Shown here: positions 1 through 27,800 of the stretch, piece by piece
Position numbering within the stretch: the first letter of the stretch is position 1
How the letters are laid out: each line of letters starts with the position of its first letter
Source of the DNA: Argopecten irradians
Taxonomy: Eukaryota; Mollusca; Bivalvia; Pectinida; Pectinidae
Length of the DNA: 64,000 nucleotides
Assembly (NCBI RefSeq): GCF_041381155.1
Contig: NC_091135.1
Coordinates: 60,300,567 to 60,364,566 of the forward strand
Reading direction: 5' to 3'
Made by a program: the position numbers and the translations under genes
Notes under the pieces: model-generated
What the model was told of the DNA's origin: nothing
Database searches by the model: none
What the model saw: only the letters and a program-made list of their open reading frames with translations

Positions 1-3000
1 TCAGACCACAAATATTGTACTCTCTGATATACGTCATGTAAAGATAGTATTTATCAGACCACATCTACTATACTCTCTGACATACGTCATATAAAGATAG
101 TATTTATCAGACCACATCTATTGTACTCTCTGATATACATCATATAAAGATAGTATTTATCAGACCACATCTACTATACTCTCTGACATACGTCATATAA
201 AGATAGTATTTATCAGACCACATCTACTATACTCTCTGACATACGTCATATAAAGATAGTATTTATCAGACCACATCTACTATACTCTCTGATATACGTC
301 ATATAAAGATAGTATTTATCAGACCACACCTACTATACTCTCTGATATACGTCATATAAAGATAGTATTTATCAGACCACATCTATTGTACTCTCTGATA
401 TACGTCATATAAAGATAGTATTTATCAGACCACATCTATTGTACTCTCTGATATACGTCATATTAAGATAGTATTTATCAGACCACATCTACTATACTCT
501 CTGATATACGTCATATAAAGATAGTATTTATCAGACAACATCTATTGTACTCTCTGATATACGTCATATTAAGATAGTATTTATCAGACCACATCTATTG
601 TACTCTCCGATATACGTCATATAAAGATAGTATTTATCAGACCACATCTACTATACTCTCTGATATACGTCATATAAAGATAGTATTTATCAGACCACAT
701 CTACTATACTCTCTGATATACGTCATATAAAGATAGTATTTATCAGACCACATCTACTATACTCTCTGATATACGTCATATAAAGATAGTATTTATCAGA
801 CCACATCTAATATACTCTCTGATATACATCATATAAAGATAGTATTTATCAGACCACATCTAATATACTCTCTGATATACGTCATATAAAGATAGTATTT
901 ATCAGACCACATCTACTATACTCTCTGATATACGTCATATAAAGATAGTATTTATCAGACCACATCTATTGTACTCTCTGATATACGTCATATAAAGATA
1001 GTATTTATCAGACCACATCTAATATACTCTCTGATATACATCATGTAAAGATAGTATTTATCAGACCACATCTATTGTACTCTCTGATATACGTCATATA
1101 AAGATAGTATTTATCAGACCACATCTACTATACTCTCTGATATACGTCATATAAAGATAGTATTTATCAGACCACACTTTCTATACTCTCTGATATACGT
1201 CATATAAAGATAGTATTTATCAGACCACATCTACTATACTCTCTGATATACGTCATATAAAGATAGTATTTATCAGACCACACCTACTATACTCTCTGAT
1301 ATACGTCATATAAAGATAGTACTTATCAGATCACATCTATTGTACTCTCTGACATACATCATATAAAGATAGTATTTATCAGACCACATCTACTATACTC
1401 TCTGATATACGTCATATAAAGATAGTATTTATCAGACCACATCTACTATACTCTCTGATATACGTCATATAAAGATAGTAGTTGTCAGACCAAATCTATT
1501 GTACTCTCTGATATACGTCATATAAAGATAGTATATATCAGACCACATCTATTGTGCATTCTGATATACGTCATATTAAGATAGTATTTATCAGACCACA
1601 TCTACTATACTCTCTGATATACGTCATATAAAGATAGTATTTATCAGACCACATCTACTATACTCTTTGATATACGTCATATAAAGATAGTATTTATCAG
1701 ACCACATCTACTATACTCTCTGATATACGTCATATAAAGATAGTATTTATCAGACCACACTTTCTATACTCTCTGATATACGTCATATAAAGATAGTATT
1801 TATCAGACCACATCTATTGTACTCTCTGATATATGTCATATAAAGATAGTATTTTTCAGACCACATCTACTATACTCTCTGATATACGTCATATAAAGAT
1901 AGTATTTATCAGACCACATCTACTATACTCTCTGATATACGTCATATAAAGATAGTATTTATCAGACCACATCTAATACACTCTCTGATATACGTCATAT
2001 AAAGATAGTATTTATCAGACCACATCTACTATACTCTCTGATATACATCATATAAAGATAGTATTTATCAGACCACAAATATTGTACTCTCTGATATACG
2101 TCATGTAAAGATAGTATTTATCAGACCACATCTACTATACTCTCTGACATACGTCATATAAAGATAGTATTTATCAGACCACATCTATTGTACTCTCTGA
2201 TATACATCATATAAAGATAGTATTTATCAGACCACATCTACTATACTCTCTGACATACCTCATATTAAGATAGTATTTATCAGACCACATCTATTGTACT
2301 CTCTGATATACATCATATAAAGATAGTATTTATCAGACCACATCTATTGTACTCTCTGATATACATCATGTAAAGATAGTATTTATCAGACCACATCTAT
2401 TGTACTCTCTGATATACGTCATATAAAGATAGTATTTATCAGACCACATCTATTGTACTCTCTGATATACGTCATATTAAGATAGTATTTATCAGACCAC
2501 ACCTACTATACTCTCTGATATACGTCATATAAAGATAGTATTTATCAGACCACACCTACTATACTCTCTGATATACATCATATAAAGATAGTATTTATCA
2601 GACCACATCTACTATACTCTCTGATATACGTCATATAAAGATAGTATTTATCAGACCACATCTATTGTACTCTCTGATATACATCATGTAAAGATAGTAT
2701 TTATCAGACCACATCTATTGTACTCTCTGATATACGTCATATAAAGATAGTATTTATCAGACCACATCTATTGTACTCTCTGATATACGTCATATTAAGA
2801 TAGTATTTATCAGACCACACCTACTATACTCTCTGATATACGTCATATAAAGATAGTATTTATCAGACCACACCTACTATACTCTCTGATATACGTCATA
2901 TAAAGATAGTATTTATCAGACCACATCTAATATACTCTCTGATATACATCATATAAAGATAGTATTTATCAGACCACATCTAATATACTCTCTGATATAC

Positions 3001-6000
3001 GTCATATAAAGATAGTATTTATCAGACCACATCTTCTATACTCTCTGATATACGTCATATAAAGATAGTATTTCTCAGACCACATCTATTGTACTCTCTG
3101 ATATATACGTCATGTAAAGATAATAGTATTTATCAGACCACATCTACTATACTCTCTGACATAAACGTCATATAAAGTCATATAGTATTTATCAGACCAC
3201 TACTATCTATGTACTCTCTGATATACATCATATAAAGATAGTATTTATCAGACCACATCTAATATACTCTCTGATATACGTCATATTAAGATAGTATTTA
3301 TCAGACCACACTTTCTATACTCTCTGATATACGTCATATAAAGATAGTATTTATCAGACCACATCTACTATACTCTCTGATATACGTCATATAAAGATAG
3401 TATTTATCAGACCACACCTACTATACACTCTGATATACGTCATATAAAGATAGTACTTATCAGACCACATCTATTGTACTCTCTGACATACATCATATAA
3501 AGATAGTATTTATCAGACCACATCTACTATACTCTCTGATATACGTCATATCAAGATAGTATTTATCAGACCACATCTACTATACTCTCTGATATACGTC
3601 ATATAAAGATAGTAGTTGTCAGACCAAATCTATTGTACTCTCTGATATACGTCATATAAAGATAGTATATATCAGACCACATCTATTGTGCATTCTGATA
3701 TACGTCATATTAAGATAGTATTTATCAGACCACATCTACTATACTCTCTGATATACGTCATATAAAGATAGTATTTATCAGACCACATCTACTATACTCT
3801 TTGATATACGTCATATAAAGATAGTATTTATCAGACCACATCTACTATACTCTCTGATATACGTCATATAAAGATAGTATTTATCAGACCACACTTTCTA
3901 TACTCTCTGATATACGTCATATAAAGATAGTATTTATCAGACCACATCTATTGTACTCTCTGATATATGTCATATAAAGATAGTATTTTTCAGACCACAT
4001 CTACTATACTCTCTGATATACGTCATATAAAGATAGTATTTATCAGACCACATCTACTATACTCTCTGATTATACGTCATATAAAGATAGTATTTATCAG
4101 ACCACATCTAATACACTCTCTGATATACGTCATATAAAGATAGTATTTTATCAGACCACATCTACTATACTCTCTGATATACGTCATATAAAGATAGTAT
4201 TTATCAGACCACATCTAATACACTCTCTGATATACGTCATATAAAGATAGTATTTATCAGACCACATCTACTATACTCTCTGATATACATCATATAAAGA
4301 TAGTATTTATCAGACCACAAATATTGTACTCTCTGATATACGTCATGTAAAGATAGTATTTATCAGACCACATCTACTATACTCTCTGACATACGTCATA
4401 TAAAGATAGTATTTATCAGACCACATCTATTGTACTCTCTGATATACATCATATAAAGATAGTATTTATCAGACCACATCTACTATACTCTCTGACATAC
4501 GTCATATAAAGATAGTATTTATCAGACCACATCTACTATACTCTCTGATATACGTCATATAAAGATAGTATTTATCAGACCACATCTACTATACTCTCTG
4601 ATATACGTCATATAAAGATAGTATTTATCAGACCACACCTACTATACTCTCTGATATACGTCATAAAAAGATAGTATTTATCAGACCACATCTATTGTAC
4701 TCTCTGATATACGTCATATAAAGATAGTATTTATCAGACCACATCTATTGTACTCTCTGATATACGTCATATTAAGATAGTATTTATCAGACCACATCTA
4801 CTATACTCTCTGATATACGTCATATAAAGATAGTATTTATCAGACCACATCTATTGTACTCTCTGATATATACGTCATATTAAGATAGTATTTATCAGAC
4901 CACATCTATTGTACTCTCCGATATACGTCATATAAAGATAGTATTTATCAGACCACACCTACTATACTCTCTGATATACGTCATATAAAGATAGTATTTA
5001 TCAGACCACATCTACTATACTCTCTGATATACGTCATATAAAGATAGTATTTATCAGACCACATCTACTATACTCTCTGATATACGTCATATAAAGATAG
5101 TATTTATCAGACCACATCTAATATACTCTCTGATATACATCATATAAAGATAGTATTTATCAGACCACATCTAATATACTCTCTGATATACGTCATATAA
5201 AGATAGTATTTATCAGACCACATCTACTATACTCTCTGATATATGTCATATAAAGATAGTATTTATCAGACCACATCTATTGTACTCTCTGATATAACGT
5301 CATATAAAGATAGTATTTATCAGACCACATCTAATATACTCTCTGATATACATCATGTAAAGATAGTATTTATCAGACCACATCTATTGTACTCTCTGAT
5401 ATACGTCATATAAAGATAGTATTTATCAGACCACATCTACTATACTCTCTGATATACGTCATATAAAGATAGTATTTATCAGACCACACTTTCTATACTC
5501 TCTGATATACGTCATATAAAGATAGTATTTATCAGACCACATCTACTATACTCTCTGATATACGTCATATAAAGATAGTATTTATCAGACCACACCTACT
5601 ATACTCTCTGATATACGTCATATAAAGATAGTACTTATCAGATCACATCTATTGTACTCTCTGACATACATCATATAAAGATAGTATTTATCAGACCACA
5701 TCTACTATACTCTCTGATATACTTCATATAAAGATAGTATTTATCAGACCACATCTACTATACTCTCTGATATACGTCATATAAAGATAGTAGTTGTCAG
5801 ACCAAATCTATTGTACTCTCTGATATACGTCATATAAAGATAGTATATATCAGACCACATCTATTGTGCATTCTGATATACGTCATATTAAGATAGTATT
5901 TATCAGACCACATCTACTATACTCTCTGATATACGTCATACAAAGATAGTATTTATCAGACCACATCTACTACACTCTTTGATATACGTCATATAAAGAT

Positions 6001-7310
6001 AGTATTTATCAGACCACATCTACTATACTCTCTGATATACGTCATATAAAGATAGTATTTATCAGACCACACTTTCTATACTCTCTGATATACGTCATAT
6101 AAAGATAGTATTTATCAGACCACATCTATTGTACTCTCTGATATATGTCATATAAAGATAGTATTTTTCAGACCACATCTACTATACTCTCTGATATACG
6201 TCATATAAAGATAGTATTTATCAGACCACATCTACTATACTCTCTGATATACGTCATATAAAGATAGTATTTATCAGACCACATCTAATACACTCTCTGA
6301 TATACGTCATATAAAGATAGTATTTATCAGACCACATCTACTATACTCTCTGATATACATCATATAAAGATAGTATTTATCAGACCACAAATATTGTACT
6401 CTCTGATATACGTCATGTAAAGATAGTATTTATCAGACCACATCTACTATACTCTCTGACATACGTCATATAAAGATAGTATTTATCAGACCACATCTAC
6501 TATACTCTCTGATATACATCATATTAAGATAGTATTTATCAGACCACACTTTCTATACTCTCTGATATACATCATATAAAGATAGTATTTATCAGATCAC
6601 ATCTACTATACTCTCTGACATAACTTATATTAAGATAGTATTTATCAGACCACATCTATTATACTCTCTGACATACGTCATATAAAGATAGTACTTATCA
6701 GACCACATCTCTTGTACTCTCTTGATATACATCATATAAAGATAGTATTTGTCAGACCACATCTACTATACTCTCTGACATACGTCATATAAAGATAGTA
6801 TTTATCAGACCACATCTATTGTACTCTCTGATATACATCATATAAAGATAGTATTTATCAGATCACATCTACTATACTCTCTGATATACGTCATATAAAG
6901 ATAGTATTTATCAGACCACATCTGCTATACTCTCTGATATACGTCATATAAAGATAGTATTTATCAGACCACATCTATTGTACTCTCTGATATACATCAT
7001 ATAAAGATAGTATTTATCAGACCACATCTACTATACTCTCTGATATACGTCATATAAAGATAGTACTTATCAGACCACATCTCTTGTACTCTCTTGATAT
7101 ACATCATGCAAAGATAGTATTTATCAGACCACACCTACTATACTCTCTGATATACGTCATGCAAAGATAGTATTTATCAGACCACATCTAATACACTCTC
7201 TTATATATGTCATATAAAGATAGTATTTATCAGACCACACCTACTATACTCTCTGATATACGTCATATAAAGATAGTATTTATCAGACCACATCTATTAT
7301 ATTCTCTGAT
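1..7310. repeat. 53-bp tandem satellite with higher-order structure (array 1)
   Basis: About 138 head-to-tail copies of a 53-bp AT-rich unit, recognisable by TCAGACCACATCTACTATAC followed by TCTCTGATATACGTCATATA and AAGATAGTATTTA. Units differ at a few recurring positions (CTACTATAC / CTATTGTAC / CTAATATAC; CGTCAT / CATCAT). Rare variants recur together: CCACAAATATTG at about 7, 2074, 4316 and 6386, and GTAGTTGTCAGACCAAATC at about 1486, 3613 and 5790. This shows a higher-order repeat of 39-42 units. The array runs off the left edge and stops abruptly at about 7310. No open frame or RNA gene is seen in it. Confidence 0.97.
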
Positions 7311-7529
7311 GTTCTGTGGGATTATTGAGCTTAATTATCCACAAAACATTCAATGAAGAGAACTATATTTTTTAAGCACATTTGATGCCTTTGTCAGCTA
7401 ATAAATATGATTTTTTTTATTTTTGTTGAAAGATTTTATTTTCGATTTGGATGGTGCTTTATTGGTAGTGCAGAAGGTGCAAATATTCTTCCCCTTATAC
7501 TGGAGTGACTTTTCAGTCTTGTTTATACC
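7311..7529. other. unique spacer between arrays 1 and 2
   Basis: 219 bp of AT-rich single-copy sequence between the 53-bp and 73-bp arrays. I see no exon, RNA gene or repeat in it. If it belongs to BOP1, it is intronic. Confidence 0.6.
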
Positions 7530-10500
7530 ATGTATACAGACAAGAAAAATTTTACCTCCTCCTTTGTAAACAGGTATTCTGGTTCAGTACTCCTGTTTTA
7601 CCATGTGATACAGACAAGTAAGAATATTTTACCTCCTCCTTTTTGTGTACAGGTATTCTGGTGGTACTCTCTGTTTTACCATGTATACAGACAAGTAAGA
7701 ATATTTTACCTCCTCCTTTGTGTACAGGTATTCTGGTGGTACTCTGTTTTACCTTGTGTACAGACAAGTAAGAATATTTTACCTCCTCCTTTGTGTACAG
7801 GTATTCTGGTGGTACTCTGTTTTACCATGTATACAGACAAGTAAGAATATTTTACCTCCTCCTTTGTGTACAGGTATTCTGGTGGTACTCTGTTTTACCA
7901 TGTGTACAGACAAGTAAGAATATTTTACCTCCTCCTTTGTAAACAGGTATTCTGGTGGTACTCTGTTTTACCATGTATACAGACAAGTAAGAATATTTTA
8001 CCTCCTCCTTTGTGTACAGGTATTCTGGTGGTACTCTGTTTTACCATGTATACAGACAAGTAAGAATATTTTACCTCCTCCTTTGTAAACAGGTATTCTG
8101 GTGGTACTCTGTTTTACCTTGTGTACAGACAAGTAAGAATATTTTACCTCCTCCTTTGTGTACAGGTATTCTGGTGGTACTCTGTTTTACCATGTATACA
8201 GACAAGTAAGAATATTTTACCTCCTCCTTTGTGTACAGGTATTCTGGTGGTACTCTGTTTTACCATGTATACAGACAAGTAAGAATATTTTACCTCCTCC
8301 TTTGTGTACAGGTATTCTGGTGGTACTCTGTTTTACCATGTGTACAGACAAGTAAGAATATTTTACCTCCTCCTTTGTGTACAGGTATTCTGGTGGTACT
8401 CTGTTTTACCTTGTGTACAGACAAGTAAGAATATTTTACCTCCTCCTTTGTGTACAGGTATTCTGGTGGTACTCTGTTTTACCATGTTATACAGACAAGT
8501 AAGAATATTTTACCTCCTCCTTTGTAAACAGGTATTCTGGTGGTACTCTGTTTTACCTTGTGTACAGACAAGTAAGAATATTTTACCTCCTCCTTTTGTA
8601 AACAGGTATTCTGGTGGTTTTCTGTTTTACCCTTGTGTACAGACAAGTAAGAATATTTTACCTCCTCCTTTGTGTACAGGTATTCTGGTGGTACTTCTGT
8701 TTTACCTTGTGTACAGACAAGTAAGAATATTTTACCTCCTCCTTTGTGTACAGGTATTCTGGTGGTACTCTGTTTTACCTTGTGTATACAGACAAGTAAG
8801 AATATTTTACCTCCTCCTTTGTGTACAGGTATTCTGGTGGTACTCTGTTTTACCTTGTGTACAGACATAGTAAGAATATTTTACCTCCTCCTTTGTGTAC
8901 AGGTATTCTGGTGGTACTCTGTTTTACCTTGTATACAGACAAGTAAGAATATTTTACCTCCTCCTTTGTGTACAGGTATTCTGGTGGTACTCTGTTTTAC
9001 CTTGTGTACAGACAAGTAACAATATTTTTACCTCCTCCTTTGTGTAAACAGGTATTCTGGTGGTACTCTGTTTTACCTTTGTGTACAGACAAGTAAGAAT
9101 ATTTTACCTCCTCCTTTTGTAAACAGGTATTCTGGTGGTACTCTGTTTTACCTTGTGTACAGACAAGTAAGAATATTTTACCTCCTCCTTTGTGTACAGG
9201 TATTCTGGTGGTGGTACTCTGTTTTACCATTTGGTTATACCAGACAAGTAAGAATATTTTACCTCCTCCTTTGTGTACAGGTATTCTGGTGGGTACTCTG
9301 TTTTTACCATAGTATACAGACAAGTAAGAATATTTTACCTCCTCCTTTGTAAACAGGTATTCTGGTGGTACTCTGTTTTACCATGTATACAGACAAGTAA
9401 GAATATTTTACCTCCTCCTTTGTGTACAGGTATTCTGGTGGTACTCTGTTTTACCATTGTATACAGACAAGTAAGAATATTTTACCTCCTCCTTTGTGTA
9501 CAGGTATTCTGGTGGTACTCTGTTTTACCTTGTGTACAGACAAGTAAGAATATTTTACCTCCTCCTTTGTGTACAGGTATTCTGGTGGTACTCTGTTTTT
9601 AACCAATGTATACAGACAAGTAAGAATATTTTACCTCCTCCTTTGTGTACAGGTATTCTGGTGGTACTTTCTGTTTTACCTTGTGTACAGACAATTTAAG
9701 AATATTTTACCTCCTCCTTTGTAGTAAACAGGTATTCTGGTGTGGTACTCTGTTTTACCATGTGTACAGACAAGTAACAATATTTTACCTCCTCCTTTGT
9801 GTACAGGTATTCTGGTGGTACTCTGTTTTACCTGTGTACAGACAAGTAAGAATATTTTACCTCCTCCTTTGTAAAACAGGTATTCTGGTGGTACTCTGTT
9901 TTACCATGTATACAGACAAGTAACAATATTTTACCTCCTCCTTTGTAAAAACAGGTATTCTGTTGGTACTCTGTTTTACCTTGTGTACAGACAAGTAAGA
10001 ATATTTTACCTCCTCCTTTGTGTACAGGTAGTTCCTGGTGGTACTGCTGTTTTTACCTTGTGTACAACAAGTACGTAATATTTTACCTCCTCCTTTGTAA
10101 ACAGGTATTCTGGTGGTTTTCTGTTTTACCATGTATACAGACAAGTAAGAATATTTTACCTCCTCCTTTGTGTACAGTATTCTGGTGGTACTCTGTTTTA
10201 CCTTGTGTACAGACAAGTAAGAATATTTTACCTCCTCCTTTGTGTACAGGTATTCTGGTGGTTTTCTGTTTTACCTGTGTTTACAGACAAAGTAAAGAAT
10301 ATTTTACCTCCTCCTTTGTGTACAGGTATTCTGGTGGTACTCTCTGTTTTACCTTGTTGTACAGACAAGTAAGAATATTTTTACGGCCTCCTCCTTGTGT
10401 TACAGGTATACTCTGTTTTAACCTTGTGTCAGACAAGTAAGAATATTTTACCTCCTCCTTTGTGTACAGGTATTCTGGTGGTACTCTGTTTTCTGTAAGA

Positions 10501-11300
10501 ATTTTTTACCTCCACTTTTGTTTACAGGTATTCTGGTGGTTAAACTTCACCTTGTGTACAGACAAGTAAGAATATTTTTACCTCCTCCTTTGTTGTACAG
10601 TTATTCTGGTGGAAACTACTCTGTTTTACCTTGTGTACAGACAAGTAAGAATATTTTACCTCCTCCTTTGTGTACAGGTATTCTGGTGGTACTCTGTTTT
10701 ACCATGTATACAGACAAAGTAAGAATATTTTATTTGTACAGACATTTTAAAAAAACCTTCCCCCTTTTACTTGTGTATAGAACAGGGTAGAATTCCTGGG
10801 GTTATGGTGGTTTATCTGTTTTTTTTTACAAGGTGTTCCCTGGTTAAACAGGGTATTTACCTTATTTACAGACAATTAAGAATAATTTATGCCTCATCCA
10901 TTGGGGGGTTAAACAGTGTTATATCTTTGTATGGTTACTTCTGTTTTACTTTTTGTATAGGGACAAAAATAAGAATATTTTAAACCTCCTCTATTGTAAA
11001 CAGTTATTTCTGTGGTACACTGTTTGACCATTTATACAGACGAAGATAAGAATAGGATTTTACCCTCCTCGTTTGTAAATCAGTATTCTGGTGGTTTTCC
11101 TGTTTTTACCTTGTGTACAGAAAAAGAATCAATATTTTTACCTCCACCTTTGGTGTACAGGTCATTCTGTTGGTTTCTGTTTATACCCTTATGTAGCAGG
11201 GGGACAATGTAAGAATATTTTACTCCTCCTATGTTGTACTAGGTATTTTCCTGGTGGTACTCTGTTTTTACCTTGTGTTACATACAAGTAAGAATATTTT
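7530..11300. repeat. 73-bp tandem array derived from a BOP1 exon end (array 2)
   Basis: About 50 copies of a 73-bp unit (plus strand: ACAGACAAGTAAGAATATTT, then TACCTCCTCCTTTGTGTACA, then GGTATTCTGGTGGTACTCTG, then a variable TTTTACC..TGT). Units are very uniform from 7.7 to 9.0 kb, then collect indels from 9.0 kb and decay strongly from 10.4 to 11.3 kb. Read on the minus strand each unit encodes (V)PPEYLYTKEE followed directly by GTAAAA. This matches the conserved BOP1 stretch NPPPEYL(x)xEEE and a plausible 5' splice site. The open frames inside it follow only from the unit length and are not genes. Confidence 0.95.
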
Positions 11301-11303
11301 TAC

Positions 11304-11366
11304 CTCCCTACTCCGTGTGGTGATTGTATGTGACCGGGGAGAGGCATCTTTGGGGCAGGATTCTGT
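11304..11366 (-). pseudogene. BOP1: BOP1 exon remnant (PAPKMPLPGH region), frameshifted
   Basis: On the minus strand, sequence between the two arrays reads roughly CACAGAATC, then one frame giving (I)PAPKMPLPGH after allowing one missing C, then TACAAT..CACGGAG (YN..E) in another frame, ending at GAG|GTAAAA at 11304/11303. This matches the BOP1 segment HKMH(I/V)PAPK..LPGHxESYNPPPEYL. At least two single-base disruptions break the frame. No 3' splice site is visible: 65-bp array sequence abuts the exon at about 11367-11375. It may be a truly decayed exon or consensus error at an array junction. It would be the exon whose duplicated end built array 2. Confidence 0.6.
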
Positions 11367-11369
11367 GAT

Positions 11370-14300
11370 CCTCTATACTAGTTTTTACATACCTCAAGTG
11401 ATATGTGGCCATTACTAGGTTTACAGTATACATACCTCATACTGATTTCCCACCCCTTGATGTGGCAGCCTCTATACTAGGTATTTACATTACATACCTC
11501 ATACTGAATTTCCACTCCCTTGATGTGCCAGGCGGCTCTATACTAGTATTACACGTATTACATACCTCATACTGATTTCCTACTCCCTTGATGTAGCCAG
11601 CCTCTATACTAGGTAAACAGTTTTACAGTACCTACATACTGAGTTTCCCACCCCTTGATGTGGCCAGCCTCTATACTAGAATAATACAGTATCACATTAC
11701 CTCATACTGATTTCCCACTCCCTTGATGTGGGCCAGCCTCTATACTAGGTATTACAGTATTACATACCTCATATGATTTCCCCTCCCCTTGATGTGGCCA
11801 GGCTCTATACTAGGTATTACTATACCTCATACCTGGATTTCCCATACCCTCATGAATGTGGGCAGAGGCTCTAAATACTAGGATAATACATATTACATAC
11901 CTCATACTGATTTCCCTACCTCCCTTGATGTTAGCCAGCCTCTATACTAGGTTAAATACAGATTTACATACCTCATACTGATTTCCCACCCCTTGATGTG
12001 GCCAGGCCTCTATACTAGATAATACAGTATTTCACATACCTCATACTGATTTTCCCACTCCCCTTGATGTGGCCAGCCTCTCTATAACTAGGTTATTGCA
12101 ACAGTATTACATACCTCATACTGATTTTCCCCTCCCCTTGATGTGGCCAGGCTCTATACTAGGTTAAAACAGTATTACATACCTCATACTGATTTCCCAT
12201 CCCTTGATGTGGCCAGCCTCTATACTAGGTAATTACAGTATTACATACCTCATACTGATTTCCTACTCCCCTTGATGTAGCCAGCCTCTATACTAGGTAT
12301 TACACAGTTATTACATACCTCATACTGATTTCCCACCCCTTGATGTGCCCAGGCCCTCTATACTAGTATAATACAGTTATTACATACCTCATACTGATTT
12401 CCCCACCCCTTGATGTGGCCAGCCTCTATACTGAGAGGTATACTAGGGTATTACCATACCTCATACTGATTTCCCTCCCCTTGATGTGGGCCATCTTGTT
12501 AATACACAGTATCCACTTCCTCTTATACGATTATCTCTACACTCCCTTTATGTGTCCCTGCCTCTATACTAGTATTACATACCTCATACTGATTTCCAAC
12601 CCTTGATGTGGCCAGGCTCTATACTAGGTAATTACAGTATTACATACCTCATACTGATTTCCCACTCCCTTGATGTAGCCCCAGCCTCTATACTTAGTAT
12701 TTAATACAGTTTCACAATACCTCATACTGATTTTCCCCCATCCCTTGATGTGGCCAGCCTCTATACTATGATAATTACAGTATCACATACCTCATACTGA
12801 TTTCCCACTCCCTTGATGTGGGCCAGCCTCTATATCTAGGTAATAATTACAGTAATTACATACCTCATACTGATTTCCCTAACCCCTTGATGTGGCCAGC
12901 CTCTATACTAGGTATTTACATACCTCATACTGATTTCCCACTCCCTTGATGTGGCCAGCCTCTTATACTAGGTATTACAGTATTACATACCTCATACTGA
13001 TTTCCCAACCCTTGATGTTGCCAGCCTCTATACTAGGTATTACAGTATTACATACCTCATACTGATTTTCCCACCCCTTGATGTGGCCAGCCTCTATACT
13101 AGGTTTATTGCATACCTCCATACTGAATTTCCCCCACCCCTTGATCATGTGTGGCCTGCATCTATACTAGGTATTCAGTATCTCATACCTCATACTGATT
13201 TCCCACCCCTTGATGTGGCCAGCCTCTATACTAGATAATACAGTATTACATACCTCATACTGATTTCCCACCCCTTGATGTGGCCAGCCTCTATACTAGG
13301 TATTACAGTATTACATACCTCATACTGATTTCCCACTCCCTTGATGTGGCCAGCCTCTATACTAGGTATTACAGTATTACATACCTCATACTGATTTCCC
13401 TCCCCTTGATGTGGCCAGGCTCTATACTAGGTATTACATACCTCATACTGATTTCCCACTCCCTTGATGTGGCCAGCCTCTATACTAGGTATTACAGTAT
13501 TACATACCTCATACTGATTTTCCCTCCCCTTGATGTGGGCCCAGGCTCTATACTAGGTATTACAGTATTTACATGTGGCCGAAGCCTCTATACTGATTTC
13601 CCACTCCCTTCCCAATGTGGCCAGGCCTCTATACTAGGTATTACGAGTATTACATACCTCATACTGGATTTCCCACCCCTTGATGTGGCCAGCCTCTATA
13701 CTAGGTAACATTACAGTATTACATACCTCATACTGTATCACATACTCCATACTGATTTCCAACCCTTGATGTGGCCAGCCTCTATACTAGGTAATTACAG
13801 TATTACATACCTCATTACTGATTTCCGTACGTCCCTTGATGTGGCCCAGCCTCTATACTAGGTAAAACAGTTTTTACATACCTCATACTGATTTCCCCAC
13901 TCCCTTGATGTGGCCAGCCTCTATACTAGATATTACAGTATTACATACCATACCTCATACTGATTTCCCATCCCCTTGATGTGGCCAGCCCCTCTATACT
14001 AGGTATTAGTACAGTATTACATACCTCATACTGATTTCCCACTCCCTTGATGTGGCCAGCCTCTATACTAGGTATTACAGTATTACATACTAATACTGAT
14101 TTCCCACTCCCTTGATGTGGCCAGGCTCTATACTAGTATACAGTATTACATACCTCATACTGATTTTCCCACCCTTGATGTTTTTGGCCAGCCTCTATAC
14201 TTAGGTATTACAGTATTACATACCTCATACTGATTTCCCACCCCCTTGATGTGGCCAGCCCTCTATACTAGGTAAATACAGTTATTACATACCTCATACT

Positions 14301-17300
14301 GATTTCCCACCCCTTGATGTGCCAGCCTCTATACTAGGTATTACAGTATTACATACCTCATACTGATTTCCCACCCCTTGATGTGGCCAGCCTCTATACT
14401 AGGTATATTACAGTATTACATACCTCATACTGATTTCCCATCCCTTGATGTGGCCAGCCTCTATACTAGGTATATGTATACAGTATTACAAACCTCATAC
14501 TGTTTTTCCCACCCCTTGATGTGGCCAGCCTCTATACTAGATAATACAGTATTACATACCTCATACTGATTTCCCACCCCTGATGTGGCCAGCCTCTTAT
14601 ACTAGGTATTACAGTATTACATACCTCATACTGATTTCCCTCCCCTTGATGTGGCCAGCCTCTTACTAGGTATTACAGTATTACATACCTCATACTGATT
14701 TCTCCACCCCTTGATGTGGCCAGCCTCTATACTAGGTATTACAGTATTACATACCTCATACTGATTTCCCACCCCTTGATGTGGCCAGCCTCTATACTAG
14801 AATTACAGTATTACATACCTCATACTGATTTCCCTCCCCTTGATGTGGCCAGCCTCTATACTAGGTATTACAGTATTACATACCTCATACTGATTTCCCA
14901 CCCCTTGATGTGGCCAGCCTCTATACTAGAGTATTACAGTCATATCTACAGCCTATATACTAGGTAAAACAGTATTACAAACCTCATACTGATTTCCCAC
15001 CCCTTGATGTGGCCAGGCTCTATACTAGGTATTACAGTATTAACATACCTCATACTGATATCCACCTTATGTGCCACATACCACATACTGATTTCCCACC
15101 CCTTGATGTGGCCAGCCTCTATACTAGGTATTACAGTATTACATACCTCATACTGATTTCCCACCCCTTGATGTGGCCAGCCTCTATACTAGGTATTACA
15201 GTATTACATACCTCATACTGATTTCCCACTCCCTTGATGTGGCCAGCCTCTATACTAGATAATACAGTATTACATACCTCATACTGATTTCCCACCCCTT
15301 GATGTGGCCAGCCTCTATACTAGGTATTACAGTATTACATACCTCATACTGATTTTCCCACTCCCTTGATGTAGCCAGCCTCTATACTAGGTAAAACAGT
15401 TTTACATACCTCATACTGATTTCCCACCCCTTGATGTGGCCAGCCTCTATACTAGGTATTACATACCTCATACTGATTTTACATAGCCTCAATATACTGA
15501 TTTCCCACCCCTTGATATGGCCAGCCTCTATACTAGGTATTGCATACCTCATACTGATTTCCCTCCCCTTGATGTGGCCAGCCTCTATACTAGATAATAC
15601 AGTATCACATACCTCATACTGATTTCCCACCCCTTGATGTGGCCAGCCTCTATACTAGGTATTACAGTATTACATACCTCATACTGATTTCCTACTCCCT
15701 TGATGTAGCCAGCCTCTATACTAGGTATTACAGTATTACATACCTCATACTGATTTCCCACCCCTTGATGTGGCCAGCCTCTATACTAGGTATTACAGTA
15801 TTACATACCTCATACTGATTTCCCACCCCTTGATGTGGCCAGCCTCTATACTAGGTAATACAGTATTACATACCTCATACTGATTTCCCACCCCTTGATG
15901 TGGCCAGCCTCTATACTAGGTATTACAGTATTACATACCTCATACTGATTTCCCACCCCTTGATGTGGCCAGCCTCTATACTAGGTAAAACAGTTTTACA
16001 TACCTCATACTGATTTCCCACCCCTTGATGTGGCCAGCCTCTATACTAGGTATTACATACCTCATACTGATTTCCCACTCCCTTGATGTGGCCAGCCTCT
16101 ATACTAGGTATTACAGTATTACATACCTCATACTGATTTCCCACCCCTTGATGTGCCAGCCTCTATACTAGGTATTACAGTATTACATACCTCATACTGA
16201 TTTCCCACCCCTTGATGTGGCCAGCCTCTATACTAGGTAATTACAGTATTACATACCTCATACTGATTTCCCACCCCTTGATGTGGCCAGCCTCTATACT
16301 AGGTATTACAGTATTACATACCTCATACTGATTTCCCACTCCCTTGATGTGGCCAGCCTCTATACTAGGTATTACAGTATTACATACCTCATACTGATTT
16401 CCCTCCCCTTGATGTGGCCAGCCTCTATACTAGGTATTACAGTATACATACCTCATACTGATTTCCCTCCCCTTGATGTGGCCAGGCCTCTATACTAGGT
16501 ATTACAGTATTACATACCTCATACTGATTTCCCACCCCTTGATGTGGCCAGCCTCTATACTAGGTAATACAGTATTACATACCTCATACTGATTTCCCAC
16601 CCCTTGATGTGGCCAGCCTCTATACTAGATAATACAGTATCACATACCTCATACTGATTTCCCACTCCCTTGATGTGGCCAGCCTCTATACTAGGTATTA
16701 CAGTATTACATACCTCATACTGATTTCCCACCCCTTGATGTGGCCAGCCTCTATACTAGGTATACAGTATTACATACCTCATACTGATTTTCCCACCCCT
16801 TGATGTGGCCAGCCTCTATACTAGGTAATACGTTACATACCTCATACTGATTCCCTCCATACTGATATTTCCACATACCTCATACTGATTTCCCTCCCCT
16901 TGATGTGGCCAGCCTCTATACTAGGTATTACAGTATTACATACCTCATACTGATTTCCCACCCCTTGATGTGGCCAGCCTCTATACTAGGTATTACAGTA
17001 TTACATACCTCATACTGATTTCCCACCCCTTGATGTGGCCAGCCTCTATACTAGGTATTACAGTATTACATACCTCATACTGATTTCCCACCCCTTGATG
17101 TGGCCAGCCTCTATACTAGGTATTACAGTATTACATGCCCTCATACTGATTTCCCATACCCCTTGATGTGGCCAGCCTCTATACTAGTAATACAGTATTA
17201 CATACCTCATACTGATTTCCCACTCCCTTGATGTGGCCAGCCTCTATACTAGGTATTACAGTATTACATACCTCATACTGATTTCCCACCCCTTGATGTG

Positions 17301-20300
17301 GCCAGCCTCTATACTAGGTAAAACAGTTTTACATACCTCATACTGATTTCCCACCCCTTGATATGGCCAGCCTCTATACTAGATAATACAGTATTACATA
17401 CCTCATACTGATTTCCCTCCCCTTGATGTGGCCAGCCTCTATACTAGATAATACAGTATTACATACCTCATACTGATTTCCCTCCCCTTGATGTGGCCAG
17501 CCTCTATACTAGGTATTACAGTATTACATACCTCATACTGATTTCCCACCCCTTGATGTGGCCAGCCTCTATACTAGGTATTACAGTATTACATACCTCA
17601 TACTGATTTCCCACCCCTTGATGTGGCCAGCCTCTATACTAGGTATTACAGTATTACATACCTCATACTGATTTCCCTACTCCCTTGATGTGGCCAGCCT
17701 CTATACTAGGATAATACAGTATTACATACCTCATACTGATTTCCCACCCCTTGATGTGGCCAGCCTCTATACTAGGTATACAGTATTACATACCTCATAC
17801 TGATTTCCCACCCCTTGATGTGGCCAGCCTCTATACTAGGTAATTACAGTATCACATACCTCATACTGATTTCCCACCCCTTGATGTGGCCAGCCTCTAT
17901 ACTAGGTATTACAGTATTACATACCTCATACTGATTTCCCACCCCTTGATGTGGCCAGCCTCTATACTAGGTAAAACAGTATTACATACCTCATACTGAT
18001 TTCCCACCCCTTGATGTGGCCAGCCTCTATACTAGGTAATACAGTATTACATACCTCATACTGATTTCCCACCCCTTGATGTGGCCAGCCTCTATACTAG
18101 ATAATACGTATTACATACCTCATACTGATTTCCCTCCCCTTGATGTGGCCAGCCTCTATACTAGGTATTACAGTACCTCACATACCTCATACTGATTTCC
18201 CACCCCTTGATGTGGCCAGCCTCTATACTAGATAATACAGTATCACATACCTCATACTGATTTCCCACCCCTTGATGTGGCCAGCCTCTATACTAGGTAT
18301 TACAGTATTACATACCTCATACTGATTTCCCACTCCCTTGATGTGGCCAGCCTCTATACTAGGTATTACAGTATTACATACCTCATACTGATTTCCCACC
18401 CCTTGATGTGGCCAGCCTCTATACTAGGTATTACAGTATTACATACCTCATACTGATTTCCCACCCTTGATGTGGCCAGCCTCTATACTAGGTATTACAG
18501 TATTACATACCTCATACTGATTTCCACCCCTTGATGTGGCCAGCCTCTATACTAGGTAAAACAGTATTACATACCTCATACTGATTTCCCACCCCTTGAT
18601 GTGGCCAGCCTCTATACTAGGTATGATATGCCAGCCTCTATACTAGGTACATACCTCATACTGATTTTCCTCCCCTTGATGTGGCCAGCCTCTATACTAG
18701 GTATTACAGTATCACATACCTCATACTGATTTCCCACCCTTGATGTGTCCAGCCTCTATACTAGGTATTACAGTATTACATACCTCATACTGATTTCCCA
18801 CCCCTTGATGTGGCCAGCCTCTATACTAGATAATACAGTATCACATACCTCATACTGATTTCCCACCCCTTGATGTGGCCAGCCTCTATACTAGGTATTA
18901 CAGTATTACATACCTCATACTGATTTCCTACTCCCTTGATGTAGCCAGCCTCTATACTAGGTAAAACAGTTTTACATACCTCATACTGATTTCCCACCCC
19001 TTGATGTGGCCAGCCTCTATACTAGGTAAAACAGTTTTACATACCTCATACTGATTTCCCACTCCTGGATGTGGCCAGGCTCTATACTAGGTATTACAGT
19101 ATTACATACCTCATACTGATTTCCCACCCCTTGATGTGGCCAGCCTCTATACTAGGTATTACAGTATTACATACCTCATACTGATTTTCCACTCCCTTGA
19201 TGTGCCAGGCTCTATACTAGGTATTACAGTATTACATACCTCATACTGATTTCCTACTCCCTTGATGTAGCCAGCCTCTATACTAGGTAAAACAGTATTA
19301 CATACCTCATACTGATTTCCCACCCCTTGATGTGGCCAGCCTCTATACTAGGTATTACAGTATTACATACCTCATACTGATTTCCCACTCCCTTGATGTG
19401 GCCAGCCTCTATACTAGGTATTACAGTATTACATACCTCATACTGATTTCCCACTCCCCTTGATGTGCCAGCCTCTATACTAGGTATTACAGTTTTACAT
19501 ACCTCATACTGATTTCCCACCCCTTGATGTGGCCAGCCTCTATACTAGGTAATACAGTTTACATACCTCATACTGATTTCCCACCCCTTGATGTGGCCAG
19601 CCTCTATACTAGGTATTACAGTATTACATACCTCATACTGATTTCCCACTCCCTTGATGTGGCCAGGCTCTATACTAGGTATTACATACCTCATACTGAT
19701 TTCCTACATACCTCATACTGATTTCCCACCCCTTGATGTGGCCAGCCTCTATACTAGGTATTACAGTATTACATACCTCATACTGATTTCCCACTCCCTT
19801 GATGTGGCCAGCCTCTATACTAGATAATACAGTATTACAGTATTACATACCTCATACTGATTTCCCTCCCCTTGATGTGGCCAGCCTCTATACTAGGTAA
19901 ATAAGGTATTACATACCTCATACTGATTTCCCTCCCCTTGATGTGGCCAGCCTCTATACTAGGTATTACAGTATTACATACCTCATACTGATTTCCCACC
20001 CCTTGATGTGGCCAGCCTCTATACTAGGTATTACAGTATTACATACCTCATACTGATTTCCCTCCCCTTGATGTGGCCAGCCTCTATACTAGGTATTACA
20101 GTATTACATACCTCATACTGATTTCCCACCCCTTGATGTGGCCAGCCTCTATACTAGATAATACAGTATTACATACCTCATACTGATTTCCCACTCCCTT
20201 GATGTGGCCAGCCTCTATACTAGGTATTACAGTATTACATACCTCATACTGATTTCCCTCCCCTTGATGTGGCCAGCCTCTATACTAGATAATACAGTAT

Positions 20301-23300
20301 CACATACCTCATACTGATTTCCCACCCCTTGATGTGGCCAGCCTCTATACTAGGTATTACAGTATTACATACCTCATACTGATTTCCTACTCCCTTGATG
20401 TAGCCAGCCTCTATACTAGGTAAAACAGTTTTACATACCTCATACTGATTTCCCACCCCTTGATATGGCCGAGCCTCTATACTAGTAATATTACAGTATT
20501 ACATACCTCATACTGATTTCCCACCCCTTGATGTGGCCAGCCTCTATACTAGATATTACAGTATTACATACCTCATACTGATTTCCCACCCCTTGATGTG
20601 GCCAGCCTCTATACTAGGTATTACAGTATTACATACCTCATACTGATTTCCCACCCCTTGATGTGGCCAGCCTCTATACTAGGTATTACAGTATTACATA
20701 CCTCATACTGATTTCCCACCCCTTGATGTGGCCAGCCTCTATACTAGGTATTACAGTATTACATACCTCATACTGATTTCCCACCCCTTGATGTGGCCAG
20801 CCTCTATACTAGGTATTACAGTATTACATACCTCATACTGATTTCCTACTCCCTTGATGTAGCCAGCCTCTATACTAGGTAAAACAGTTTTACATACCTC
20901 ATACTGATTTCCCACCCCTTGATGTGGCCAGCCTCTATACTAGGTATTACAGTATTACATACCTCATACTGATTTCCCACCCCTTGATGTGGCCAGCCTC
21001 TATACTAGGTATTACAGTATTACATACCTCATACTGATTTCCCACCCCTTGATGTGGCCAGCCTCTATACTAGGTATTACATACCTCATACTGATTTCCC
21101 TCCCCTTGATGTGGCCAGCCTCTATACTAGGTATTACAGTATTACATACCTCATACTGATTTCCCACTCCTGATCTCCCTTGATGTGGCCAGCCTCTATA
21201 CTAGGTATTACAGTATTACATACCTCATACTGATTTCCGACTCCCTTGATGTGGCCAGCCTCTATACTAGGTATTACAGTATTACATACCTCATACTGAT
21301 TTCCCTCCCCTTGATGTGGCCAGGCTCTATACTAGATAATACAGTATTACATACCTCATACTGATTTCCCACTCCCTTGATGTGGCCAGCCTCTATACTA
21401 GGTATTACAGTATTACATACCTCATACTGATTTCCCACCCCTTGATGTGGCCAGCCTCTATACTAGGTATTACAGTATTACATACCTCATACTGATTTCC
21501 CATGATTTCCCACTCCCTTGATGTGGCCAGCCTCTATACTAGGTATTACAGTATTACATACCTCATACTGATTTCCCACCCCTTGATGTGGCCAGCCTCT
21601 ATACTAGATAATACAGTATCACATACCTCATACTGATTTCCCACCCCTTGATGTGGCCAGCCTCTATACTAGGTATTACAGTATTACATACCTCATACTG
21701 ATTTCCTACTCCCTTGATGTAGCCAGCCTCTATACTAGGTAAAACAGTTTTACATACCTCATACTGATTTCCCACTCCCTTGATGTGGCCAGCCTCTATA
21801 CTAGGTATTACAGTATTACATACCTCATACTGATTTCCCACCCCTTGATGTGCCAGCCTCTATACTAGGTATTACAGTATTACATACCTCATACTGATTT
21901 CCCACCCCTTGATGTGGCCAGCCTCTATACTAGGTATTACAGTATTACATACCTCATACTGATTTCCCACCCCTTGATGTGGCCAGCCTCTATACTAGGT
22001 ATTACAGTATTACATACCTCATACTGATTTCCCACTCCCTTGATGTGGCCAGCCTCTATACTAGGTATTACAGTATTACATACCTCATACTGATTTCCCT
22101 CCCCTTGATGTGGCCAGCCTCTATACTAGGTATTACAGTATTACATACCTCATACTGATTTCCCACCCCTTGATGTGGCCAGCCTCTATACTAGGTATTA
22201 CAGTATTACATACCTCATACTGATTTTCCACCCCTTGATGTGGCCAGCCTCTATACTAGGTATTACAGTATTACATACCTCATACTGATTTCCCACCCCT
22301 TGATGTGGCCAGCCTCTATACTAGGTATTACAGTATTACATACCTCATACTGATTTCCCACCCCTTGATGTGGCCAGCCTCTATACTAGGTATTACAGTA
22401 TTACATACCTCATACTGATTTCCCACCCCTTGATGTGGCCAGCCTCTATACTAGGTATTACATACCTCATACTGATTTCCCACTCCCTTGATGTGGCCAG
22501 CCTCTATACTAGGTATTACAGTATTACATACCTCATACTGATTTCCCACCCCTTGATGTGGCCAGCCTCTATACTAGGTATTACAGTATTACATACCTCA
22601 TACTGATTTCCCACCCCTTGATGTGGCCAGCCTCTATACTAGGTATTACATACCTCATACTGATTTCCCACCCCTTGATGTGGCCAGCCTCTATACTAGG
22701 TATTACAGTATTACATACCTCATACTGATTTCCCACCCCTTGATGTGGCCAGCCTCTATACTAGGTATTACATACCTCATACTGATTTTCCACCCCTTGA
22801 TGTGGCCAGCCTCTATACTAGGTATTACAGTATTACATACCTCATACTGATTTCCCACCCCTTGATGTGGCCAGCCTCTATACTAGGTATTACAGTATTA
22901 CATACCTCATACTGATTTCCCACCCCTTGATGTGGCCAGCCTCTACTATATATACGTATTACATACCTCATACTGATTTCCCACCCCTTGATGTGGCCAG
23001 CCTCTATACTAGGTATTACAGTATTACATACCTCATACTGATTTCCCACCCCTTGATGTGGCCAGCCTCTATACTAGGTATTACAGTATTACATACCTCA
23101 TACTGATTTCCCACCCCTTGATGTGGCCAGCCTCTATACTAGGTATTACAGTATTACATACCTCATACTGATTTCCCACCCCTTGATGTGGCCAGCCTCT
23201 ATACTAGGTATTACAGTATTACATACCTCATACTGATTTCCCACTCCTGGATGTGGCCAGCCTCTATACTATATTAGGTATTACATACCTCATACTGATT

Positions 23301-24707
23301 TCCCACCCCTTGATGTGGCCAGCCTCTATACTAGGTATTACAGTATTACATACCTCATACTGATTTCCCACCCCTTGATGTGGCCAGCCTCTATACTAGG
23401 TATTACAGTATTACATACCTCATACTGATTTCCCACCCCTTGATGTGGCCAGCCTCTATACTAGGTATTACAGTATTACATACCTCATACTGATTTCCCA
23501 CCCCTTGATGTGGCCAGCCTCTATACTAGATATTACAGTATTACATACCTCATACTGATTTCCCACCCCTTGATGTGGCCAGCCTCTATACTAGGTATTA
23601 CATACCTCATACTGATTTTCCACCTTCCCCTTGATGTGTCCAGCCTCTATACTAGATATTACAGTATTACATACCTCATACTGATTTCCCACCCCTTGAT
23701 GTGGCCAGCCTCTATACTAGGTATTACAGTATTACATACCTCATACTGATTTCCCACCCCTTGATGTGGCCAGCCTCTATACTAGGTATTACAGTATTAC
23801 ATACCTCATACTGATTTTCCACCCCTTGATGTGGCCAGCCTCTATACTAGATAATACAGTATTACATACCTCATACTGATTTCCCACCCCTTGATGTGGC
23901 CAGCCTCTATACTAGGTATTACAGTATTACATACCTCATACTGATTTCCCACCCCTTGATGTGGCCAGCCTCTATACTAGGTATTACAGTATTACATACC
24001 TCATACTGATTTCCCACTCCCTTGATGTGGCCAGCCTCTATACTAGGTAAAACAGTATTACATACCTCATACTGATTTCCCACCCCTTGATGTGCCAGCC
24101 TCTATACTAGTATTACAGTATTACATACCTCATACTGATTTCCCACTCCCTTGATGTGGCCAGCCTCTATACTAGGTATTACAGTATTACATACCTCATA
24201 CTGATTTCCCACCCCTTGATGTGGCCAGCCTCTATACTAGGTATTACAGTATTACATACCTCATACTGATTTCCCACCCCTTGATGTGGCCAGCCTCTAT
24301 ACTAGGTAAAACAGTATTACATACCTCATACTGATTTCCCACCCCTTGATGTGGCCAGCCTCTATACTAGATAATACAGTATCACATACCTCATACTGAT
24401 TTCCCACCCCTTGATGTGGCCAGCCTCTATACTAGGTATTACAGTATTACATACCTCATACTGATTTCCCACCCCTTGATGTGGCCAGCCTCTATACTAG
24501 GTAATACAGTATTACATACCTCATACTGATTTCCCACCCCTTGATGTGGCCAGCCTCTATACTAGGTATTACAGTATTACATACCTCATACTGATTTTCC
24601 ACTCCCTTGATGTGCCAGGCTCTATACTAGGTATTACATACCTCATACTGATTTCCTACTCCCTTGATGTTGCCAGTCTCTATACTAGGTAAAACAGTAT
24701 TACATAC
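11370..24707. repeat. 65-bp tandem array derived from BOP1 exon 5 / 5' splice site (array 3)
   Basis: About 200 copies of a 65-bp unit (plus strand: TATACTAGGTATTACAGTAT, then TACATACCTCATACTGATTT, then CCCACCCCTTGATGTGGCCA, then GCCTC), with 66-bp variants (CCCACTCCCTTGATG). Copies from 11.4 to 14.6 kb are indel-rich; those from 15 to 24.6 kb are nearly uniform. On the minus strand each unit reads (G)HIKG(V/W)GNQYE followed by GTATGTAATAC. This is a near copy of the end of BOP1 exon 5 ([21 protein letters not shown]), which lies at the right edge of the array. Irregular spots (12.48-12.55, 13.56, 15.05, 16.85 and 18.62 kb) are damaged units, not exons. Confidence 0.97.
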
Positions 24708-24825
24708 CTCATACTGATTTTCCACCCCCTTGGGGTGTTTTCCTTTCTGTAGCCTCTTAATAGTCTGCAGGTCTTCCTCACTCAGCACAACATTCTGACC
24801 AGTCATCTTGTTTGTCACAGTTCTC
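24708..24825 (-). CDS. BOP1: BOP1 exon 5, ending at the edge of the 65-bp array
   Basis: 118 nt after TTTTGTTAG|G; the first base completes Trp of PDYW. It reads [20 protein letters not shown], then [19 protein letters not shown], and ends GAG|GTATGT (phase 0). It aligns with the family segment WRT(V)xxxMTG..LxxE.., LxRLQxG and ends just before the expected PxVDFF segment. The last ~30 nt and following intron bases are the template repeated in the adjoining array. Confidence 0.93.
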
Positions 24826-27800
24826 CTAACAAAACAGATGTTCATGTAGACTCTATGTGTTTCAATATGAATTGTATAATTATAAAGCATAGGTAGATAA
24901 ATTTCACAATAACATGCATTGATTTCACTCGTTCCATACTAGGATTCTAAATAATTTCCAGATGTCATTATTAGTCTCGTCCCATAATATGAACAATAAA
25001 GTATGTCTTCTCTATATATGTATTTCTGATAGGCCGAAATAATGTTAGAAAATGGGAAATTATGTTATAAATAATTACATTGTTATAAGATACATCATTC
25101 TGCATATTTGCATTTGATAAACAACTGATTAACAGCCAAGCAAAGTACGATCATTTGTCGAAACATGACCAGTATCACTGAGTATATTGATTGATTCTTT
25201 TGAATTCAGAAATGGCTGGATACATTCTTTCGAAATCTGTTCTTTTGGTATTAAATAGATAGGACTAAAATAAAGCTGATTGTGCCACAAGTAGGTTGGG
25301 GATTTTCCTTGTAGTTACCGTATTTCACCGCAAATAAGACCCCCCCCCCCCCCCCCAAAGAAGAAATAAAGGTCAAAAGTGGTGGGGGGTCTTATTTGCG
25401 GACAACCTGCTCTATGAGGTCGCCATCTTGGATTTTTTAATGTCCAGTGTCATTGTTGTAACAGTCGTATGACAGATGGGTAATAGCAAGATGTTCAAGT
25501 ATTAATAATAATAATGAAGACCTATGAGTAAAATTAAATCAAATGTTAATGTTATGACAAATTAAAATATAAACAATACTATGGCGGTTGTTACGTAAGT
25601 CTGAAAGGGAAACGCACATTTTTGCAAGAGTCACGCGGACATTCACCAATGAATCAAAACGAAGAAACAGCATCATAAGCAATGTTATTTTAATCCAGAA
25701 GTTTTAATGATCGTATAGTTATTTTAAAATATTCAAATTCGGTTATTGTTTACGATAACAACTACATCTCCGTCTTAGTAAACACGTGAATCAATCGCCG
25801 TGAATCAGTAGGACGATCGCCATTCAGACTCAGGCCTATTTAAAGTTCACTGCAAACGTTTACATATCAAATTTGTTCATAAACAGAAGAATTTACGTAC
25901 ATTTGTCTCAGCCAAATGAGCAAACGATCGTGATTTAACTTCAACGTGCCGACATGCACTGATGCAGTTGTTTGTAACATCGTACACACATGTGTAGGAA
26001 AATGGCGCCGGGTTGAAGCCATACTTTCACATTTTCACACCGGGTCATGTTTGGGAATTTGATCGGTATTGCTATTGATACGACGATAGTTTGATAATAT
26101 TTCAGATATTAATCCAAGTATTAACTGCATTAAAACATCGTAGCAAGTATTTTTGTATCCAGAGTAAAATACGAAACTTTGCGGCTAATCATATTATACT
26201 GGCTGCGTAAACAAAACATGGCGGCCGAAAAGTAAAGCATGGTTTCTCCAACTGATCGTAAACTACAGGTACGTTATGTTCACAAATAAACATATTTGAA
26301 ACTGTAAATGCCTTACGTAGGTGTTTTAGGTAATGATTGTATTGAGTTAGAATCCACGGCTGCAGAAACAATCTGCATCAATGACGAATTTCTTTGCCGA
26401 TTCATGTAAAAAATGACAAGCCATACGAACACTAAAACGTGTTGACCATGCCGATATGAAGTGTTCATGGAAACATATATCGGCGTATTTTGTTGAAAAT
26501 AACCTCCAATTAAATATGAACACTGTCCACAATTCGTAGTTATTGATAATTAAATTAAATCAACCGTGAATTAACTTGAATTAAATGACAAAAATAACAA
26601 GCACACAAATAAACTTTTTATGCCGATAAAGAAAAACAAAAAGAAGTTCTGATACAAAGTCATTTTGGTGATATTTTTTATTACTCCATTGCTCAAATCC
26701 ATCATCCAGTAAAACTGAAAAATAGGTGGGGGGTCTTATTTGCAGACATCCCCCCTAAGTCTGAAAATGTGTCAAAATAGGTGGGGGGTCTTATTTGCGG
26801 GAGGGGTCTTATTTGCGGTGAAATACGGTACATCTCACTGCCATCTTGTTTATATTAGTAATGACAGAGCAGAGCATTTCCTCAGATACTTAACCAAATT
26901 GGGTCACATGACATAAAATTTGTGCATTTCATAGAAATGCCTGCTATCACCTGAGAATGACATTTTTGTGTAAAACTCATCTGTTATCTGCTGAACCCAA
27001 CTTATACAGCATATTTTCTTACCAGTAATCAGGATTGTCCATTTTATTAAGGAACTCATCCAATTCATCAGCCTTTTTCGGTTTGGCAATTTTCCTTCCT
27101 TCTACATCGTAACCAAGATGGTCATAATCCCTATACCACTCCAGTGGCACATTCCCTACAGTGTTCCGGATATCCTTAAGTGAGAAAACAAAAGGTACAT
27201 ATCTATATATGACTTCTATCATCAGACTTAGATCAAATTATTTACATATATCAGAAAATATTTGCTAAATGGTATGAGCTGAGACATGACCAACAATAAT
27301 GTATACAACAGGGATGTGAACCTTACTCAATGGCATGGCAGGCATAAAATATTGCATGGTTGAGAAACAAATAGGTAAGTAAACTTCATTTTCCTTGTTG
27401 TTGTATATTACAAAGATTTACAACAATAACATACTTCCTCGTCAGAAGAGTCACTTTCATATTCATCTCTTTGGGGAGCGGACAGTCCTGTGTTGTCTGT
27501 TCCCTGTTCTGTCCTCCGTGACTTTCTAGATTTTGTAAGAGATTTTATGTTGATAGCTTTCTCCATAGAATCATCATCGCCTGTGTTATTATCACTTGAT
27601 CCTTCCTCTATTTCCTCTACTGGTAAATCACTCACTTCTTCATCATCATTTTCATCTGATGAATCAGAGCTGTTGTTGCTGTCTTCATCCTTGAAACAAT
27701 AAAGCAAAAGGGACATGAATTTTAAGGTATTGAAGGTTAATTGAATTGACTGAAAAACCGTAAGATTCCTCAAAGCAAGGCTGATCACTAGTATGGTACA

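Follow-up and report, generated by a model that had tools for sequence, protein, structure and literature searches.

Tandem arrays carrying exon ends and splice donors in BOP1 and nearby genes of Argopecten irradians

The minisatellite of the human interferon-induced gene 6-16 (IFI6/G1P3) was reportedly recognised in 1995 as providing multiple splice donor sites. As reported, it resembles the arrays described here in that a tandem repeat covers an exon-intron boundary and each unit holds a donor; it differs in that the scallop arrays are far longer and occur in several genes, and that the extra donors here are known from sequence alone. Internal tandem repeats at exon-intron boundaries have also been described in human genes within segmental duplications (PMC2812944). 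These too cross exon-intron boundaries and are able to alter splicing, but they concern recent human paralogs and novel introns with RNA support, not intronic arrays of 50-200 donors. Accounts of intron gain by tandem duplication over an intron-exon boundary likewise have splice signals copied; there, a single event creates a new intron, whereas in the scallop existing introns grow. In the stwintrons of Lipomyces a donor element is duplicated as well, and break repair has been proposed as the source (PMC7138796). The duplications there are 4-7 nt long and lead to nested introns, not to a satellite. A literature search, mostly of texts short of the full paper, showed nothing recognised as a donor-derived satellite, whether in BOP1 or as a recurring process. 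Human genes already provide examples of repeats over exon-intron boundaries; what is new here is their recurrence, length and copy number.

The window, a stretch of 64,000 nucleotides from Argopecten irradians (C2:60300567-60364566), was taken from an assembly of 845,758,899 bases in 1508 contigs and analysed with its surroundings (120 kb on the lower side, 80 kb on the upper), a region of 264 kb. Its minus strand holds the first part of a BOP1/Erb1 gene, in which BOP1NT and C-terminal beta-propeller exons are ordered on one strand with gaps at human residues ~222-297 and ~476-511. The gene continues below the window, where human matches follow in order up to the C-terminus at -21312 (window coordinates). 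The features needed here are the following; the slash marks the exon-intron junction.

1 to 7310, extending below the window to -8510, minus strand: 53-bp array in the same intron as the 73-bp array, 298 copies, no exon sequence
7515 to 11330, minus strand: 73-bp array of BOP1 exon C end, donor and intron (TRF and wraparound alignment)
11310 to 11360, minus strand: BOP1 exon C, a garbled remnant with PAPKMPLPGH readable (alignment to human BOP1)
11395 to 24740, minus strand: 65-bp array of BOP1 exon B end (...ENQYE), donor GAG/GTATGT and intron, 205 unit rows
24696 to 24824, minus strand: BOP1 exon B, parent of the 65-bp unit (alignment to human BOP1 and to the unit); PF08145 at 3.6e-6, under the curated cutoff
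27022 to 27174, minus strand: BOP1 exon A (human residues 131-182), PF08145 at 1e-12

TRF assigned a period of 73 bp to positions 7520-10492 (40.1 copies, 91% matches) and 10495-10731 (3.2 copies). Wraparound alignment gave 51 unit rows over 7515-11330, of which those at ~10.7-11.33 kb are very noisy. In gene orientation (minus strand) the unit reads ccaccagaatacctgtacacaaaggaggag/GTAAAATATTCTTACTTGTCTGTACACAAGGTAAAACAGAGTA and consists of the final 30 nt of BOP1 exon C (PPEYLYTKEE), the donor GAG/GTAAAA and 43 nt of intron. A second donor-like site, AAG/GTAAAA, is present per unit. The sequence-only reading that drew attention to this stretch had described an array of BOP1 exon ends, and this observation is confirmed. 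It had also assigned the same sequence to every unit. Among 40 units retained from 7588-10700 (rows with >20% gaps and the two end rows were dropped), GT is indeed found in 40/40 and GAGGTAAAA in 39/40, but the peptide PPEYLYTKEE is encoded in 28/40 only; PPEYLFTKEE accounts for 8/40. The assignment of the peptide to BOP1 holds, as human BOP1 (PDB) has PPEYLLSEEE and Chaetomium Erb1 PPEYLPTKEE at the same place. All 26 assembly-wide occurrences of the 18-mer CCACCAGAATACCTGTAC lie inside the 73-bp array. The two halves of the unit are weakly similar (75/2000 shuffles), and RNA folding of the units revealed nothing notable (z -0.27, -1.74 and -0.77).

The peptide PAPKMPLPGH, which had been placed just before the array, was located at 11359-11330. 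The stretch between it and the array is garbled, and the real end of exon C is therefore unreadable. A phmmer search with the garbled exon C translation yielded no match. The position and orientation of the array fit exon C as parent, and the missing end can be deduced from the unit. When the exon piece of the unit is joined to exon D (PPEYLYTKEEEEKWQNQDPDERR), the resulting PPEYLYTKEE/EEKWQNQDP (slash at the C/D exon junction) has a spacing equal to human PPEYLLSEEERLAWEQQEP (human counterpart at equal spacing: PPEYLLSEEERLAWEQQEPGERK). The end of exon C is therefore the one shown by the unit, in phase 0, and a single copy is all that the protein requires.

The 65-bp array (TRF: 201.7 copies, 86% matches) has a better preserved parent. 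Exon B ends in ...GVENQYE/GTATGT, and the alignment of its sequence CCAAGGGGGTGGAAAATCAGTATGAG/GTATGTAATACTG with the unit spans positions -25 to +25 relative to the donor, which 0/300 shuffles equalled; the earlier description of this array as a BOP1 exon-end repeat is thus borne out. The array starts inside exon B in the same orientation, giving a clean junction with its parent. The exon-like piece is 29 nt long in 122/166 matched units, versus 30 nt in exon B. Both BOP1 arrays are minisatellites or satellites in the usual sense (a unit of tens of bp repeated head to tail in many highly identical copies), and their units join the end of an identified BOP1 coding exon to its own 5' splice site, which makes them donor-derived repeats. 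For the main consensus, the idea that the 65-bp and 73-bp units share an origin is not supported: 184/500 and 148/500 shuffles reached the score in the two orientations. A minor TT variant of the 65-bp unit, picked post hoc, has an inverted 20-bp match to the 73-bp unit around GGTAAAACAG (0/500 shuffles; two of 12 comparisons).

The sequence between the two arrays is of poor quality. A 73-bp unit has 0.54 insertions on average at 7.6-8.6 kb but 10.86 at 10.7-11.33 kb, and the 65-bp array has more indels below ~15.6 kb. The region around 11 kb is likely unpolished long-read sequence with a mis-join; copy numbers there are therefore uncertain. Human residues ~222-297 (about 76) had no tblastn match in the window or the 264 kb, and there is no room for them between the arrays (11310-11412). 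An assembly search with human BOP1 211-411 gave two matches among the best candidates scored, both to downstream exons. Residues ~476-511 had no match in the 264 kb either.

The survey of the 264 kb used 16 tandem arrays, whose periods range from 21 to 73 bp. Five of the 16 carry an exon edge, namely those of BOP1 exon B, BOP1 exon C, a DAO-type gene, NFS1 and an IMPA-like gene. Two of these came from the sequence-only reading, so that three are new:

C2:60239581-60245407 (window -60986 to -55160): 56-bp array in a DAO-type oxidoreductase gene, 104 copies
38022 to 38542, plus strand: 70/155-bp array in an IMPA-like gene, acceptor-side, copies read by eye
C2:60393035-60396061 (window 92469-95495): 29-bp array, degenerate, similar to the NFS1 exon 3 end with its GTAAGT donor (alignment)

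The DAO-type gene (sarcosine/dimethylglycine dehydrogenase-like) is identified by its first exon (Pfam DAO, 2.5e-10); the exon behind the repeat unit reaches only 0.0061 with Pfam DAO and 0.36 with dimethylglycine dehydrogenase in the PDB. The 56-bp unit comprises the last 43 nt of this exon and GTAAGTCACATAC, with a GTAAGT donor. The array is clean at both edges and starts at its parent exon in the same orientation. Only in this gene are the original breakpoints readable: the exon directly before the unit reads GTTAGTGGCAT, and the far edge shows the apparent old intron GTAAGTCTCATCAAACC. The CAT common to both, within a longer imperfect match, would be the expected trace of a microhomology-guided duplication. 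The edge comparison at exon B shows a shared AACA, which is weaker evidence because the far edge there is a mis-join. NFS1 exon 3 matches cysteine desulfurase in the PDB at 7.8e-20. The 29-bp unit aligns with the NFS1 donor from -22 to +20 (22 nt of exon, 20 nt of intron) with a score of 32, reached by 0/300 shuffles; the exon tail alone is identical at 16/22 positions in the same register (P ~2e-5), while its free local score is not significant (139/300). In an intron of the IMPA-like gene, the acceptor TTATAG and ~8 nt of the next exon are repeated in four copies, as judged by eye.

By alignment, no exon sequence was found in three arrays: one lies beside a DUF4535 (STMP1-like) exon, another next to an ankyrin exon and the third by the first DAO exon. 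The edges of four more do not touch a located exon; two of these arrays are in GMPR, and the others are the 32-bp one in NFS1 and the 53-bp one in BOP1. The remaining four of the 16, with no identified exon, fell outside the exon comparison. Among the 25 introns with both exons located, six hold an array (tblastn coordinates, approximate). Two tRNA matches, at 32946-33018 and 33169-33241, lie in repeat-rich sequence and may be genes or SINE heads. The suggestion that two exon-end satellites in one gene are unlikely to be chance is strengthened by three further arrays within ~160 kb, two on the donor side and one on the acceptor side. Satellite DNA thus seems to arise repeatedly at exon edges.

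The arrays probably started as short tandem duplications spanning exon-intron junctions and grew neutrally, with the exon-proximal donor being the one used in splicing. In BOP1, a short tandem duplication would have copied the last 30 nt of exon C, the donor and 43 nt of intron. As the extra copy would lie downstream of an intact exon end, the proximal donor could still be used and yield normal mRNA, and the duplication would be tolerated. Once there were two copies, slippage or unequal exchange may have expanded them, and the exon-like copies would have drifted as intron. The process would have been repeated separately at exon B, in the DAO-type gene and in NFS1, and in an acceptor version in the IMPA-like gene. 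We infer splicing from the first donor; the C/D junction supports this because it fits one copy.

Active 5' splice sites might also be prone to duplication in their own right, through R-loops or breaks linked to splicing or transcription, and donor satellites would then form a genome-wide class. To look at the whole assembly, we tallied triples, three occurrences of an 8-base word separated by 22-52 bases, over both strands, with the reversed word as control. Triples of the donor word AGGTAAGT numbered 9086 vs 898 for the reversed word (10-fold), those of AGGTATGT 9957 vs 4366 (2.3-fold) and those of AGGTGAGT 5132 vs 1244 (4.1-fold). Of the other words, TAGGATGA gave 1753 vs 2010 (0.9-fold), the acceptor-like TTTTACAG 4980 vs 3256 (1.5-fold) and the non-donor word AGGTAACT 4319 vs 2223 (1.9-fold), which is also high. 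The excess of AGGTAAGT triples is seen although single occurrences are only 52563 vs 45462, a single-word baseline that applies to AGGTAAGT only. As triples are counted per unit, a few long arrays can dominate the totals. Applied to 16 local TRF rows, which are partly dependent, a donor-matrix test gave p<0.05 in 5/16 rows and a combined p of 0.007; neither BOP1 array was significant (p 0.367 and 0.174). The genome-wide excess of donor-word triples is therefore suggestive, not decisive, given the per-unit counts, the one high non-donor word and the null result for the BOP1 arrays in the matrix test. The excess hints at more than passive tolerance. The acceptor-side array in the IMPA-like gene counts against a birth at active donors, and since only ~226 nt of intron C-D lie outside arrays (the 53-bp array occupies most of it and ends 36 bp short of exon D), an array at the exon edge there calls for no special mechanism. 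We consider a splicing-linked birth of these arrays unlikely. The wider proposal, that in this genome satellites arise systematically at exon edges, chiefly at 5' splice sites, through repeated splicing- or transcription-linked tandem duplication, with up to hundreds of decoy donors in introns and intron growth as a result, is slightly more probable and still doubtful.

Elsewhere in the assembly, C1:2890660-2896974 holds a 41-bp array with AGGTAAGT in each unit. It adjoins an open frame after AG, a possible exon end, for which we found no Pfam or PDB match. At C1:1195495-1195664, 54-bp units contain TTTTACAG with a short piece and GT after it; this might be an acceptor-side case.

It is also conceivable that the copies are functional, either as mini-exons or as competing donors that produce alternative BOP1 transcripts or tune splicing, as reported for the human 6-16/IFI6 minisatellite. 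The conservation of GT and GAGGTAAAA in the 73-bp units and the second donor-like site per unit would fit. GT is kept in 40/40 units of the 73-bp array and in 153/160 and 88/100 units of the other two arrays; neutral copies have no need to retain it, though young arrays would keep GT. Reading each copy as a miniature exon that carries both splice signals is not supported. From the donor to the AACAG of the next copy there are 39 nt, as read from the unit. This is below the usual minimum for animal introns. The putative mini-exon of 34 nt would shift the frame, most 65-bp copies are frame-shifted, and the exact C/D junction is obtained from one copy. Heterozygosity in exon-like/intron-like parts is 0.0395/0.0385 (73-bp array), 0.0200/0.0334 (65-bp) and 0.0534/0.0608 (56-bp), and 36/73, 16/65 and 15/56 circular shifts, respectively, are at least as low. 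The exon-like parts thus show no extra constraint compared with the intron-like parts. A usable acceptor and donor, a frame-fitting length and coding constraint, as expected of tandem mini-exons, are not found together here, and a function of the copies seems quite improbable.

That the array was inflated or invented from noisy long reads is very hard to credit: the errors accumulating toward 11 kb and the ~76 BOP1 residues that are absent between the arrays and not found elsewhere would agree with it, but 7.6-8.6 kb is clean with variants common to many units, the edges of the DAO-type array are clean, and an artefact could account for how many copies there are and for the lost piece of the exon, but not for the unit itself.

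Satellite births and intron growth are usually inferred long afterwards, whereas here each unit can be traced to its parent with single-base precision. That several exon edges are affected points to a concrete source of intron expansion that can be tested, and the arrays constitute a natural experiment in which the splicing machinery chooses one donor among up to ~200 near-identical ones.
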